Source: Sphingomonas corticis | GTDB taxonomy: Bacteria; Pseudomonadota; Alphaproteobacteria; Sphingomonadales; Sphingomonadaceae | Length of the DNA: 64,000 nt | Direction: 5' to 3' | NCBI RefSeq assembly: GCF_012035195.1 | Contig: NZ_JAAVJH010000005.1 | Coordinates: 248,001 to 312,000, forward strand | In this document: one piece after another, positions 20,981-45,354 of the stretch | How the letters are laid out: the number at the start of each line of letters is the position of its first letter | Position numbering within the stretch: the first letter of the stretch is position 1 | Translations under genes and position numbers: made by a program | Notes under the pieces: model-generated | What the model was told of the DNA's origin: nothing | The model's input: the letters and a program-made list of their open reading frames with translations, nothing else | Database searches by the model: none

Positions 20981-22804
20981 ATGCACGCCTACCGCACTCA
21001 CACCTGCGCCGCGCTAACCGGGGCGAACGCCGGCGAGACTGTCCGCCTGTCGGGCTGGGTGCATCGCAAGCGCGACCACGGCGGCGTGCTGTTCGTCGAC
21101 CTGCGCGACCATTACGGCATCACGCAGATCGTGGCGGACAGCGACAGCCCGGCGCTGGCGCTGCTGGACGGCCTGCGCGTCGAATCGGTCGTGACGATCG
21201 ATGGCGAGGTGAAGCAGCGCTCCGAGGCGACGGTGAACCCGAACCTGCCGACCGGCGAGGTCGAGGTCTACGCCCGCGCCGCCACGGTGCAGAGCCACGC
21301 GCAGGAGCTGCCGATGCCGGTGTTCGGCGATGCCGAATATCCGGAGGAGATCCGCCTCAAATACCGCTTCCTCGACCTGCGGCGCGAGAAGCTGCACGCC
21401 AATATCATGCTGCGATCGAGCGTGATCGCGTCGATCCGGCGGCGAATGGTGGAGCAGGGCTTCACCGAGTTCCAGACGCCGATCCTGACCGCGTCCTCGC
21501 CGGAGGGCGCGCGCGACTATCTCGTTCCGAGCCGCGTCCACCCCGGCAAGTTCTACGCGCTGCCGCAGGCGCCGCAGATGTTCAAGCAGCTGCTGATGGT
21601 CGCCGGCTTCGACCGCTATTTCCAGATCGCGCCCTGCTTCCGCGACGAGGACGCGCGCGCCGACCGGTCGCCGGGCGAGTTCTACCAGCTCGACTTCGAG
21701 ATGAGCTACGTCACGCAGGAGGACGTGTTTCAGGCGATCGAGCCGGTGCTGCACGGCGTGTTCGAGGAGTTCGCCGACTGGCAGGGGAAGGGGCGGTCGG
21801 TGTCGCCGTTGCCGTTCAAGCGCATCCCCTATCGCGAGTCGATGCTGAAGTACGGCAACGACAAGCCGGACCTGCGCAACCCGATCATCATCAGCGACGT
21901 CGGCGAGCATTTCGCCGGGTCGGGCTTCGGCCGCTTCGCCTCCATCGTCGAGGCGGGCGACGTGGTCCGCGCGATCCCGGCGCCGGGCACGGCGGAGAAG
22001 AGCCGCAAGTTCTTCGACGACATGAACGCCTGGGCGCAATCCGAGGGGTTCGCGGGCCTCGGCTACGCCACGCGCAAGGGCGGTGAGTGGGGCGGTCCGA
22101 TCGCGAAGAACCATGGCGAGGAGAAGATGAGCGCGATGGCCGACGCGCTGGGCCTCGGTCCCGACGACGGCCTGTTCTTCGCGGCGGGCAAGGAGGCTCA
22201 GGCCGCGAAGCTCGCCGGCCTGGCGCGCACCCGCGTGGCCGAGCAGCTCGGCCTGATCGACCAGAGCCGCTTCGAGTTCTGCTGGATCGTCGACTTCCCG
22301 ATGTTCGAGTACGACGAGGACGCGAAGAAGGTCGACTTCAGCCACAATCCCTTCTCGATGCCGCAGGGCGAGATGGAGGCGCTGGAGACGAAGGACCCGC
22401 TCGATATCCTCGCCTATCAGTACGACATCGTCTGCAACGGCGTGGAGCTGTCGTCGGGCGCGATCCGAAACCATCGGCCGGAGATCATGTACAAGGCGTT
22501 CGAGATCGCGGGCTACACGCAGGCGGACGTCGACACGAATTTCGCCGGCATGATCAACGCCTTCAAGTTCGGCGCCCCGCCGCACGGCGGCTCGGCGCCG
22601 GGGATCGACCGCATCGTGATGCTGCTGGCGGACCAGCCGAACATCCGCGAGGTGATCGTCTTCCCGATGACGCAGAAGGCGGAGGACCTGATGATGGGCG
22701 CGCCCAACTTCGCCACGGCGAAGCAGCTGAAGGAGCTGAACCTGCGGTCCACGGTCGAGGCGCCGAAAGACGTGGCGAGGGCGGTGGCGCCCGACGCGGG
22801 CTGA
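20981..22804 (+). CDS. aspS: Aspartyl-tRNA synthetase
   Basis: 607-residue class IIb synthetase. The N-terminal OB-fold anticodon-binding domain ([19 protein letters not shown]) leads into class II motifs 1-3: motif 2 in [10 protein letters not shown] and motif 3 in [13 protein letters not shown] near residue 540. The bacterial GAD insertion is present, as in the long bacterial type. Whether it is discriminating or also charges tRNA-Asn cannot be judged here. No Shine-Dalgarno is obvious; the start lies about 20 bases after repeat family A. Confidence 0.97.
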
Positions 22805-41680: not shown

Positions 41681-42424
41681 ATGGCAGGCCATTCCAAGTT
41701 CAAGAACATCATGCATCGCAAGGGCGCGCAGGACAAGAAGCGCTCCGGCATGTTCTCCAAGCTCTCGCGCGAGATCACGGTGGCGGCGAAGATGGGCCTG
41801 CCCGATCCCGACATGAACCCGCGCCTGCGCGCCGCGGTGAATGCCGCCAAGGCGCAGTCGATGCCCAAGGACAATATCCAGCGCGCGATCGACAAGGCGT
41901 CGAGGGGCGACACGGAAAATTACGAGGAGATCCGCTACGAGGGCTTCGGCCCGGGCGGCGTGTCGCTCATCATCGAGGCGCTGACCGACAACCGCAATCG
42001 CACCGCGACCAACGTGCGCACCGCCGTCAGCAAGAACGGCGGCAACCTGGGCGCGAGCGGATCGGTGAGCCATGGCTTCGACCGCATGGGCCTCATCACC
42101 TATCCCGCCACCGCGGGCGACGCGGAAAAGGTGTTCGAGGCGGCGCTGGAAGCCGGGGCGGAGGATGTGAGCTCCACCGAGGAGGGGCACGAGGTGTGGA
42201 CCGCCCAGGGCGACCTGCACGAGGTCGCGAAGGCGCTCGAGCCGGTGCTGGGCGAGGCGGAAGGCGCCAAGCTCGCCTGGCGCCCGCAGACGATGGTCGA
42301 CGTGGCGGAAGAGGACGCGGCGACGCTGTTCAAGCTGATCGACGCGCTGGACGACGACGACGACGTGCAGACGGTGTGGGGGAATTACGAGGTCAGCGAC
42401 GCCGTGATGGAGAAGCTGTCGTAA
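41681..42424 (+). CDS. yebC: YebC/PmpR family translation/transcription regulator
   Basis: 247-residue protein starting [20 protein letters not shown], the hallmark of Yeb[23 protein letters not shown] and the acidic [18 protein letters not shown]-terminal segment are all intact. YebC proteins were first called transcription regulators; recent work on relatives points to relief of ribosome stalling at proline-rich stretches. It is directly upstream of the DUF559 cassette and ruvC, the usual order for yebC-ruvC in this group. Confidence 0.95.
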
Positions 42425-42429
42425 AATCG

Positions 42430-42465
42430 AAGTCCCTCCCCTTCAGGGGAGGGGTTGGGGTGGGG
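42430..42465. repeat. Left arm of inverted repeat bracketing the DUF559 gene (family E)
   Basis: 36 bases beginning AAGTCCCTCCCC and ending GGTTGGGGTGGGG. It folds into a hairpin with a TTCA loop and 9-pair stem (one T-G wobble). 32 of 36 bases match the reverse complement of 42828-42863, with three differences preserving base pairing. Confidence 0.88.
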
Positions 42466-42476
42466 AAGATCGGTTG

Positions 42477-42872
42477 ATGACGAGCAAGGCCGCCAAGAAT
42501 CGTCGCAACCCGACCGAGCCTGAGCTGCGACTTTGGCGGCATCTGTCGAACTCGCAGCTGGGAGGCTTCAAGTTTCGTCGTCAGCACGCGGTCGAGGGGC
42601 GCGTCCTGGACTTCTTCTGCCCCGCGATTGCAATCTGTATCGAGATCGACGGCCATACCCACGATGCCGATGACGATCGTTTGGCAGACGATTATCTGCT
42701 TCAACGAACTGGTATCGTCACGCTTCGGTTCAATAACGTGGATGTGATGACGAATTTGGACGGCGTCCTTCAAATGATCCTGACGTGCGCGCAAAAGCTG
42801 CCGTTGCGTTGGCCATCGCGCGGCGTGCTCCACCCCAACCCCTCCTCTGAAGAGGAGGGGCTTTCCTCGTGA
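42477..42872 (+). CDS. DUF559 (Vsr-like) endonuclease-domain protein
   Basis: 131-residue protein of the DUF559 family, PD-(D/E)XK-like. [17 protein letters not shown] and [19 protein letters not shown] are diagnostic; the likely active site is Asp in VLDFFCP with EIDGHTHD later. The gene is bracketed by inverted repeats (42430-42465 and 42828-42863), and its last residues ([13 protein letters not shown]) come from the right arm. It interrupts yebC-ruvC; its stop overlaps the ruvC GTG. TTG 42474 is a one-codon-earlier start. Role unknown; nicking or cutting of DNA is inferred from the fold. Confidence 0.9.
42828..42863. repeat. Right arm of inverted repeat bracketing the DUF559 gene (family E)
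   Basis: Begins CTCCACCCCAACCCC and ends GAGGAGGGGCTT; reverse complement of 42430-42465. Its internal hairpin has the same 9-pair stem and TTCA/TGAA loop, with a C-G pair exchanged for T-A relative to the left arm. It is translated as the end of DUF559. Confidence 0.88.
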
Positions 42873-43375
42873 TTATCCTGGGCCTCGACCCCGGCCTCGG
42901 CACGACCGGCTGGGGCGTGATTCGCGCGGACGGCAACCGCCTCAGCCACGTCGCGAACGGGCAGATCCGTACCGATCCCTCCACCCCGTTGCCGCGCCGC
43001 CTGTCGAACCTGAGCGCCGCGCTGGCCCAGGTGATCCATACCGAGCGGCCGGACAGCGCGGCGGTGGAGGAGGTGCTGGGCAACACCAACGCGCAATCGA
43101 CGCTGAAGCTGGGGCAGGCGCGCGGTGTCGTGCTGCTCGCCGCGGCGGACGCGGGGTTGGCGGTGGGCGAGTATCATCCCTCCACCGTCAAGAAGGCGGT
43201 GGTCGGCACCGGCGGCGCGGAGAAGCGGCAGATCCAGGCGATGATGGCAGTCCTGCTGCCCGGCGCGAAGCTGGCAGGGCCTGACGCGGCCGACGCGCTG
43301 GCGGTGGCGATCACCCACGCGCACCATCTCGCGAGTGCCGCGGGCATGGCGCGGCGGGCGAGGGTGACGGCATGA
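42869..43375 (+). CDS. ruvC: Holliday junction resolvase RuvC
   Basis: 168-residue endodeoxyribonuclease that cuts Holliday junctions symmetrically. [17 protein letters not shown] carries the first catalytic Asp; the Glu pair is in AAVEEVLG; the last acidic residues are in [17 protein letters not shown]. Starts at GTG inside the DUF559 stop. Ends in a 4-base overlap with ruvA (ATGA), forming a coupled pair. Confidence 0.97.
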
Positions 43376-44040: not shown

Positions 44041-44790
44041 GTGAGCGCGCGGACGATCGCGGTGTACAGCCTGAAGGGCGGGGTGGGGAAGACGACGCTG
44101 GCCGTCAACCTCGCCTGGGCCGGGGCGACGCTGTCCGCGCGACGGACGCTGATCTGGGATCTCGACGCGCAGGCCGCCGCCACCTGGATCCTCGGCCACG
44201 ACGGCGACGGGCGCGAGGCTGAAGCGGCGATCCGGCGCGAGGTGGACCCGCGCCGGCTGATCCGCGCGACCGCGGTGGAGCGGCTCGACCTGCTGCCCGC
44301 CGACACGTCGCTTCGCGGACTGGACCTCGCCTTCCACGAACTCGACAAGAAGCGGCGGCTCGCACGCCTCGCGCAGGAGCTCGGCCGCGATTACGACCGC
44401 CTCGTCATCGATTGCCCGCCCGGGCTGACCGACACCTCGGACCAGATCATGCGCGCGGCGGACCTGGTGGTCGTGCCGGTAATCCCCAGCGCGCTCTCGC
44501 GCCGCGCGCTGGACGCGATCAGCGCGCACGTGGCGCGCCGCAAGGGACCCAAGGTGATGCTGGCGCCCGTCTTCTCCATGGTCGACCGCCGCCGCGCGAT
44601 CCACCGCGAGGCGCTGGCGCAGCACGCCGGCTGGCCGGCCATCCCGATGGCGAGCGCGTTCGAGGCGATGACCGAGCGCCGCGCCCCGCTCGGCACCTTC
44701 GCCCCACGCGGCTCGGCGGGGGTGGAGGCGGTGGCCGCATTGTGGCAGCGGCTTGAACAGGCGCTGGCCAAGGTGACGGAACGCGCGTGA
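44041..44790 (+). CDS. ParA/MinD-family P-loop ATPase
   Basis: 249-residue deviant Walker ATPase with the signature YSLKGGVGKTT at the N-terminus, switch region IDCPPGLTDTSDQIM and VVVPVIPSALSRRAL. It is a solitary family member: no parB, parS sites or other partition genes are near, so its cargo is unknown. Starts at GTG 44041. A 6-base hairpin GCCGGT-TAGG-ACCGGC at 43999-44014 precedes it and might be an operator or promoter element. Confidence 0.88.
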   Translation: MSARTIAVYSLKGGVGKTTLAVNLAWAGATLSARRTLIWDLDAQAAATWILGHDGDGREAEAAIRREVDPRRLIRATAVERLDLLPADTSLRGLDLAFHELDKKRRLARLAQELGRDYDRLVIDCPPGLTDTSDQIMRAADLVVVPVIPSALSRRALDAISAHVARRKGPKVMLAPVFSMVDRRRAIHREALAQHAGWPAIPMASAFEAMTERRAPLGTFAPRGSAGVEAVAALWQRLEQALAKVTERA

Positions 44791-44807
44791 GCGACTATGT
44801 TGCGGGC

Positions 44808-45059
44808 ATGAGCGAGCTGACCATCTCGATTCCGCCCGTCCTTCGGCAATGGGTCGATCGCCGCGTCGCAGAAGGACCGCATGCCGACGCCGCCGACTAT
44901 CTGCGCGATCTCGTGCGACGCGATCGGGACGATGCGGCCGTCGGTCATGCCTGGTCGAAGGGAATGATCGAGCAGGGTCGTCGCTCCGGCTTTGTGGAAG
45001 CGGAGCCGGAGGCTGTTCTCGCCGCCATCATCGCCGAGGATCCTGACCTTCGTGACTGA
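44808..45059 (+). CDS. parD: ParD-type antitoxin (ribbon-helix-helix)
   Basis: 83-residue antitoxin. Its N-terminal ribbon-helix-helix ELTISIPPVLRQWVDRRVAEG and helix ADAADYLRDLVRRDR match ParD/CopG. The later acidic region (FVEAEPEAVLAAIIAE) would neutralise ParE. GTG 44787, in an overlap with the ParA-like stop, is an alternative start; I prefer ATG 44808 as the family start. It overlaps the parE start by 8 bases. Confidence 0.85.
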   Translation: MSELTISIPPVLRQWVDRRVAEGPHADAADYLRDLVRRDRDDAAVGHAWSKGMIEQGRRSGFVEAEPEAVLAAIIAEDPDLRD

Positions 45060-45354
45060 GTTGCGGATCAGCCGCGACGCGCAACACGATCTTCGTGACA
45101 TCATGAGCTTCAGCAAGGCTCGTTTCGGCGTCGCCGTTGCGCGCGCTTACCTCCGGGGTCTGCACGATGTCTTCGTCACGCTTCGCGAAAGACCGCTGAT
45201 CGGCGTCGCACGTGGGGATCTCGGGCGGGAGGTGCGCGCGCTCAGCTACCGATCGCATCGCATCTACGACGAAACGGAGGGCGGCTCCGTGGACATTCTG
45301 CGCGTGCTGCACCATGCGCGTGACGTGCCCACCGCTGTTGCGCCGTTTCCATGA
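45052..45354 (+). CDS. parE: ParE/RelE-family toxin
   Basis: 100-residue toxin of the ParE/RelE superfamily. [18 protein letters not shown] and the C-terminal [24 protein letters not shown] are typical. ParE toxins inhibit DNA gyrase, and RelE toxins cleave ribosomal mRNA; with ParD next door ParE is favoured. GTG start. Its stop overlaps the ruvB ATG (ATGA), placing the toxin-antitoxin pair within the ruv transcription unit. Confidence 0.85.

Follow-up and report, generated by a model that had tools for sequence, protein, structure and literature searches.

In Sphingomonas corticis, a gene for a DUF559 (PF04480) endonuclease-like protein lies between two inverted arms, each of which carries a three-run motif; motifs of this kind frame DUF559 genes widely, and the locus described here is one example across the phylum. 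We lean towards regarding the gene and its two arms as a single unit of a REPIN-like system whose enzyme has a Vsr fold (EDxHD-like). A wider proposal, on which we come down slightly on the side of doubt, makes DUF559 the nuclease dedicated to BoxC/PIT repeats in Pseudomonadota: a REPIN-type system whose enzyme has a PD-(D/E)XK/Vsr fold, is not HUH-related and reads an intrastrand triplex or its three-strand code, which would account for the dispersal of the repeats. The observations comprise the framing of the genes, the match between paired arms, covariation over three strands, the tracking of protein clade by arm type, repeat copy number in relation to the gene and the scarcity of the ordinary REP transposase (RAYT); from these sequence patterns we infer recognition, cutting and movement of the repeats by DUF559.

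The arms and the DUF559 protein at the yebC-ruvC locus

The window (the whole 64-kb stretch of DNA that was analysed) carries the DUF559 gene on the plus strand at 42477..42872, encoding 131 residues from the ATG at 42477, with a TTG start at 42474. The left neighbour of the insertion site is yebC (41681..42424, plus strand; Pfam YebC domains) and the right neighbour is ruvC (42869..43375, plus strand), whose GTG start overlaps the DUF559 stop codon. The left arm (42430..42465, plus strand) consists of AAG, a pyrimidine (Y) strand TCCCTCCCC (42433-42441), the loop TTCA (42442-42445), a purine (R) strand GGGGAGGGG (42446-42454), the linker TT and a third purine strand GGGGTGGGG (42457-42465), the mirror image of the stem's purine strand. 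The right arm (42828..42863), read on the minus strand, has the same layout of AAG, CCCCTCCTC (42860-42852), TTCA (42851-42848), GAGGAGGGG (42847-42839), TT and GGGGTGGAG (42836-42828), and it overlaps the 3′ end of the DUF559 gene.

A sequence-only reading of the window had described these arms as alike at 32 of 36 bases when one is inverted, each folding into a 9-pair stem with a TTCA loop. Coordinates, count and stems proved correct on recounting, and the repeat search returned an inverted repeat of 34 nt with 91% complementarity. The inverted-repeat score of the locus is 33, and a score of at least 30 is reached by none of 90 outer control windows, which are mostly coding and not an intergenic-matched control. 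A three-run motif finder applied to both strands of the window returned the two arms and one chance match at 22708 that has no pyrimidine strand. As that reading had also claimed, one difference between the arms (T/C) turns a T-G wobble into C-G in the stem, and in two others (C/T and G/A) a C-G pair is exactly replaced by T-A. The remaining difference (G/A) falls in the third purine run, opposite the replaced pair, and is accounted for by that exchange, since the third run of the right arm changes from G to A where the facing pair changes from C-G to T-A. Among known RNAs, the left arm gave a single whalefall-1 match below threshold (18.7 against 37 bits), and phage and defence families gave weak matches only. 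Further along the window, a ParE-type toxin gene (PF05016, E 1.3e-12; 45058-45354) is preceded by a 90-residue open reading frame (44787-45059) with no Pfam match, which is perhaps its antitoxin.

The window protein matches PF04480 with E 3.5e-24 (85.2 bits against a cut-off of 20.6). Sequence profiles link it to 3hrl (E 6e-36) and, with E 8.6e-5, to I-Bth0305I (3r3p), an EDxHD homing endonuclease; a structure model (mean pLDDT 78.9) aligns with 3hrl (Z 16.4), I-Bth0305I (Z 12.0 over 92 residues) and Vsr (Z 9.8). The Vsr-like fold proposed for the product earlier is thus supported by the predicted structure; Pfam matches up to E 1 include no Vsr model, in a search from which weak matches were filtered out. 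Residues invariant in 38 homologues include R9, E16, W20, R34, R35, Q36, D45, E56, D58, G59, H62 and D67, of which we assume that E16, D45, H62 and D67 correspond to the EDxHD catalytic residues. The last dozen or so residues are encoded by the right arm, in agreement with the sequence-only reading, and fall within the low-confidence region of the model (pLDDT <50, residues 114-130), where this tail is predicted to be disordered. The gene is under purifying selection (dN 0.26 and dS 1.13 against the homologue in genome G008, dS being near saturation).

The profile and fold matches to I-Bth0305I, and the placing of a DUF559 gene among the EDxHD homing enzymes in the accessible part of PMC9403480, speak for a free-standing homing endonuclease that cuts gene-less doublets or arms, after which repair from a gene-bearing copy would use the arms as homology while the repeats spread by other means. 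We consider this rather unlikely. With 131 residues, the protein has no room for the extra DNA-binding modules of phage homing enzymes described in the part of PMC3943268 available to us, and homing leaves open why repeat copy number follows the gene and what spreads the doublets. DUF559 shares the nuclease-domain fold of the EDxHD homing endonucleases and Vsr but differs from them in being a stand-alone gene between repeats and not inside an intron, and the window gene is adjoined by no methyltransferase as far as its neighbours were read (yebC, ruvC).

Three-strand covariation in the arms

Covariation was evaluated on arms of the window's own type (type A), 178 arms from 98 loci with 77 distinct sequences; membership required at least 25 of 34 bases alike, a few arms of other types are included, and the statistics ignore kinship. 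The pair cells of the 77 distinct arms are 29 compensated, 17 wobble-kept, 22 broken and 625 unchanged, whereas column shuffles give a mean of 6.1 compensated cells (maximum 13) and 45 broken ones (minimum 38). Pairing is therefore kept across many loci more often than the shuffles give, as the sequence-only reading had anticipated. Its suggestion of selection on the hairpin stands in so far as structure is kept while sequence changes, but the object of that selection appears to be the hairpin together with its third strand.

This extension rests on two loop-adjacent stem positions. Where these carry a T-A pair, the third strand has A or T in all 20 cells; where they carry C-G, it does so in 1 of 69 (46 distinct arms whose third strand is readable, at positions outside the register rule). 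Shuffling third strands among arms 5000 times, with kinship ignored, gives a mean of 5.7 and at most 12 of the 20. A fixed register yields 10 such cells against a null maximum of 9, and a flexible register over all positions yields 20/22 for T-A against 5/326 for C-G; in the flexible-register test, three of the counted positions are bound to be G by the register rule, which is why the recount used rule-free positions. T-A facing A and T-A facing T are both present, at both positions, and loci L212 and L232 each have two arms with different exchanges, each with its own third-strand match, so several independent exchange events are likely. The hairpins thus seem to be maintained as three-strand motifs, that is, a hairpin with a mirror-image third strand. 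Template-switch repair within the palindrome could also make paired changes, but how it would reach the third strand is not obvious.

Framing of DUF559 genes, repeat copy number and insertion sites

The S. corticis genome has three DUF559 genes, all with inverted arms, which are of three sequence types. Matched inverted arms (score of at least 30) occur at 80/91 loci from relatives and in 0/90 outer windows; left and right flanks of different loci, when mispaired, reach this score in 69/270 cases. Further loci from relatives have matched arms at 32/34, which brings the total to 112/125. This survey covered 126 of 135 DUF559 matches, the other nine being seven in other genera and two in genomes G015 and G025. 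Locus L026 of this set and L274 of the named set were dropped as too near contig ends. Among named Sphingomonadales loci, a set that overlaps the genus set for some genomes, matched inverted arms are found at 75/79 (outer windows 0/76). Such arms are also present at 16/29 class-wide matches, not all of which are DUF559 genes standing alone, and at 46/67 phylum-wide loci (outer windows 0/67; 15/25 outside the class), six of these 67 loci being from the window's family. DUF559 is present in 80/199 genomes of the phylum sample, and 40 of the loci surveyed were hand-picked from lists and are not random. The arms fall into types A-G, which differ in sequence and have the three-run layout in common, some with a second hairpin in the linker. 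In the several sets, the motif points inward at both ends of 70/91, 26/34, 12/23, 63/79 and 34/67 loci, against no more than 6 outer windows on either side in any set. The flanks of these loci also often carry the motif in the opposite orientation (21 and 20 of 91; 29 and 28 of 67). At two loci of one genome (L361 and L385 of G324), the framing repeats are unusually long (scores 197 and 169) and include a second, AT-richer hairpin.

Framing of this kind bears on the reading of DUF559 as a cellular Vsr-like repair nuclease, the repeats being passive terminators or fragile insertion sites, or kept for regulation. The Vsr fold of the model agrees with it, as does the DUF559 protein VsrA of Caulobacter, which in the accessible part of PMC12907096 is tied to DNA damage and cytosine methylation and drives a DNA-damage response without its presumed methyltransferase partner. 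It does not predict the match of arm to arm, which reaches a score of at least 36 in 78/91 true pairs against 50/270 mispaired ones, and we regard it as unlikely.

Arm type also follows protein clade and not genome, another pattern that a repair nuclease does not predict. When left arms are compared with right arms from other loci, their similarity correlates with protein identity (r 0.62, n 81; permutations reach at most 0.087; kinship ignored), and genes of different clade within the same genome (42 pairs) have a median arm likeness of 0.21, equal to that of genes in different genomes. Part of this agreement reflects linked inheritance, since the gene persists at few sites. Copy number follows the gene as well, again unpredicted for a repair enzyme with passive repeats. 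Type-A copies have a median of 21 in 15 genomes with a cognate gene and of 1 in 22 genomes without one (p 1.1e-4 after removal of two arms per genome, kinship ignored), and type-C copies are likewise associated with their cognate gene (19 against 18 genomes, p 6e-4, kinship ignored). Exceptions exist for both types. G015 and G020, whose assemblies are 83% and 79% complete, have 18 and 14 type-A copies and no cognate gene, no type-A-framed gene being found among their DUF559 matches. G025, G024 and G026 have 96, 21 and 16 type-C copies but no intact type-C gene, and three genomes that do carry the gene have at most 4 other type-C copies. In G025, a DUF559 gene near a contig edge has a right end that resembles a decayed type-C arm; this genome remains an exception, and its 96 copies are a candidate either for recent loss of the enzyme or for evidence against a need for it.

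The window unit stands alone in its genome, where its two arms are the only type-A arms found. Beyond these, a search of the genome gave 6 weak type-A matches against 8 in the reversed control, and the window arms are ruled out on this count as a dispersed repeat of their own genome. A second DUF559 gene coexists there with a populous type-C family, to which its arms belong. The type-C doublets of this genome number nine and are 103-111 bp apart, and the pattern CCTCCCC-loop-GGGGAGG occurs at 38 sites, one of them the window's left arm, against 1 in the reversed control. Three sites (L132, L136 and L137) hold tail-less single hairpins such as TATCCTCCCCGGCACGGGGAGG, resembling type-C doublets reduced to their outer ends, and are possibly scars of excision or deletion.

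The insertion site itself was surveyed in 50 of 61 genus genomes, of which G015, lacking a yebC match, was left out. Of the remaining 49, 7 have the gene in the yebC-ruvC gap, 6 a gene-less doublet, 9 a single motif, 9 no more than 25 bp and 18 other sequence. The 98 type-A loci occupy 27 contexts, the three largest with 28, 19 and 16 loci; that of 19 is yebC-ruvC, and downstream of the single loci read from the contexts of 28 and of 16 lie an ABC ATPase gene and a DNA ligase gene. Taken together, the gap survey and the context counts indicate that the gene moves seldom and persists, and that short doublets are numerous. Arm pairs lacking the gene, whose existence the sequence-only reading had made a point of, are thus present at the yebC-ruvC site (6/49 genomes) and dispersed elsewhere. 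Homing would be well served by arms and sites common to gene-bearing and gene-less forms, and a repair nuclease by the long persistence of the gene at few sites and by a gap that draws several repeat types without the gene. A different family of long inverted repeats (GTTCACGCGGAGACGCGGAG and similar; ~200-390 bp) occupies the gap in several genomes (L116-L118, L107, L114, L128, L176 and L179). In G084 (L111), the gap holds a near-perfect palindrome of ~80 bp with two AAGCCCCTC ends that lack third strands; it may derive from a type-A doublet.

Twenty type-A doublets read from relatives, hand-picked and not random, measure 95-147 nt; 17/20 start after AG and 16/20 end before CTT. Among 100 elements, direct repeats of at least 6 bases flank 11%, against 6% of mispaired flanks, and none is convincing as a target duplication; an insertion sequence or MITE with target duplication was rejected on this comparison. 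An 8-base direct repeat is present close to the ends of one doublet (L293).

Relation to known repeat systems

The closest likeness in architecture is to REPIN-RAYT systems (REPtrons), in which dispersed palindromic repeats in inverted pairs also frame one enzyme gene and enzyme and repeat types are matched. Dispersed inverted pairs of the gene-framing type are found here for type A in relatives and for type C in the window's own genome. RAYTs are the known REP-associated enzymes (accessible parts of PMC3733652 and PMC8266576), and the shared doublet layout could mean that an ordinary RAYT moves the repeats with DUF559 as cargo. That is very improbable, and RAYTs as mobilizers are largely refuted by the search for this transposase family: PF01797 occurs in 4/61 genus genomes and is missing from the other 57, among them the window's own genome and G022, which has 97 type-A copies. 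By reading, the arms begin with AAG or ATCC and carry no GTAG tag, the framed gene is PF04480 and not an HUH/Y1 transposase, and a third-strand motif is present. As neither the HUH enzyme nor the GTAG tag is found, the DUF559-arm unit falls outside the REPIN-RAYT class, yet is built like one of its members. CGTC-tagged REPs, which form inverted dimers, many of them in alphaproteobacteria, have no known transposase according to the part of PMC3733652 available; at the 29 class-wide DUF559-like loci no CGTC-tagged palindrome was found save one stray CGTCAT word, and a link of these REPs to DUF559 is not supported.

The arms themselves resemble the repeats named in turn BoxC, PIT and TM_ECO, with 23 copies in E. 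coli K-12 and occurrence in >260 genomes (Holder 2015, PMC4666352, accessible part). As in those intrastrand-triplex repeats, a Y strand, an R strand and a mirror R strand lie in one DNA strand of both arms, and the motifs are intergenic, in many copies per genome, some as inverted pairs. Unlike them, sphingomonad types A-G frame a nuclease gene; their sequences are different, and some include a further hairpin in the linker. According to the same portion of that source, the E. coli motif forms a triplex in vitro, in vivo footprinting gave no support for stable triplexes, and mobility activity near the motifs is not reported. Tests described there gave no terminator or promoter activity of E. 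coli PIT elements, which counts against the reading of DUF559 as a repair nuclease beside passive repeats. No published link between DUF559 and BoxC/PIT-type repeats was found in literature judged mostly by titles and the beginnings of abstracts, which is not proof of absence.

In E. coli K-12 (NC_000913.3), ycjD, a gene annotated as DUF559, is followed 167 bp downstream by BoxC/TM_ECO copy no. 9 (1351204-1351239). About 0.005 copies would be expected within 300 bp, a figure to be read in the light of the proximity having been noticed after the fact, and the copy is on one side only, in the orientation opposite to that of a right arm. The E. coli genome, one of 14 controls in the profile search, gave no PF04480 match despite this annotation.

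Under the REPIN-like reading that we favour, the arms would be BoxC/PIT-type intrastrand-triplex repeats, and the nuclease would most likely recognise its own arm type, single-stranded or extruded and folded as a hairpin with a third strand, and nick or cut at the arm. Replication and repair might then place mainly the short gene-less doublets (95-147 nt among the 20 read) at new intergenic sites by a presumed copying step, and the gene-bearing form only rarely.

DUF559 is a widespread family of unknown function, and its link to the repeats provides a testable partner for both; E. coli K-12, in which ycjD and BoxC copies are both present, is a laboratory strain suited to such a test. The three-strand covariation provides evidence from natural sequences for the upkeep of a triplex layout, beyond that of a hairpin. 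If the link is true, a second, unrelated kind of REP-framing nuclease would stand beside the RAYTs. The like framing of most relatives of the gene that were surveyed suggests an enzyme that acts on, and perhaps spreads, a common bacterial repeat of so far unexplained origin.
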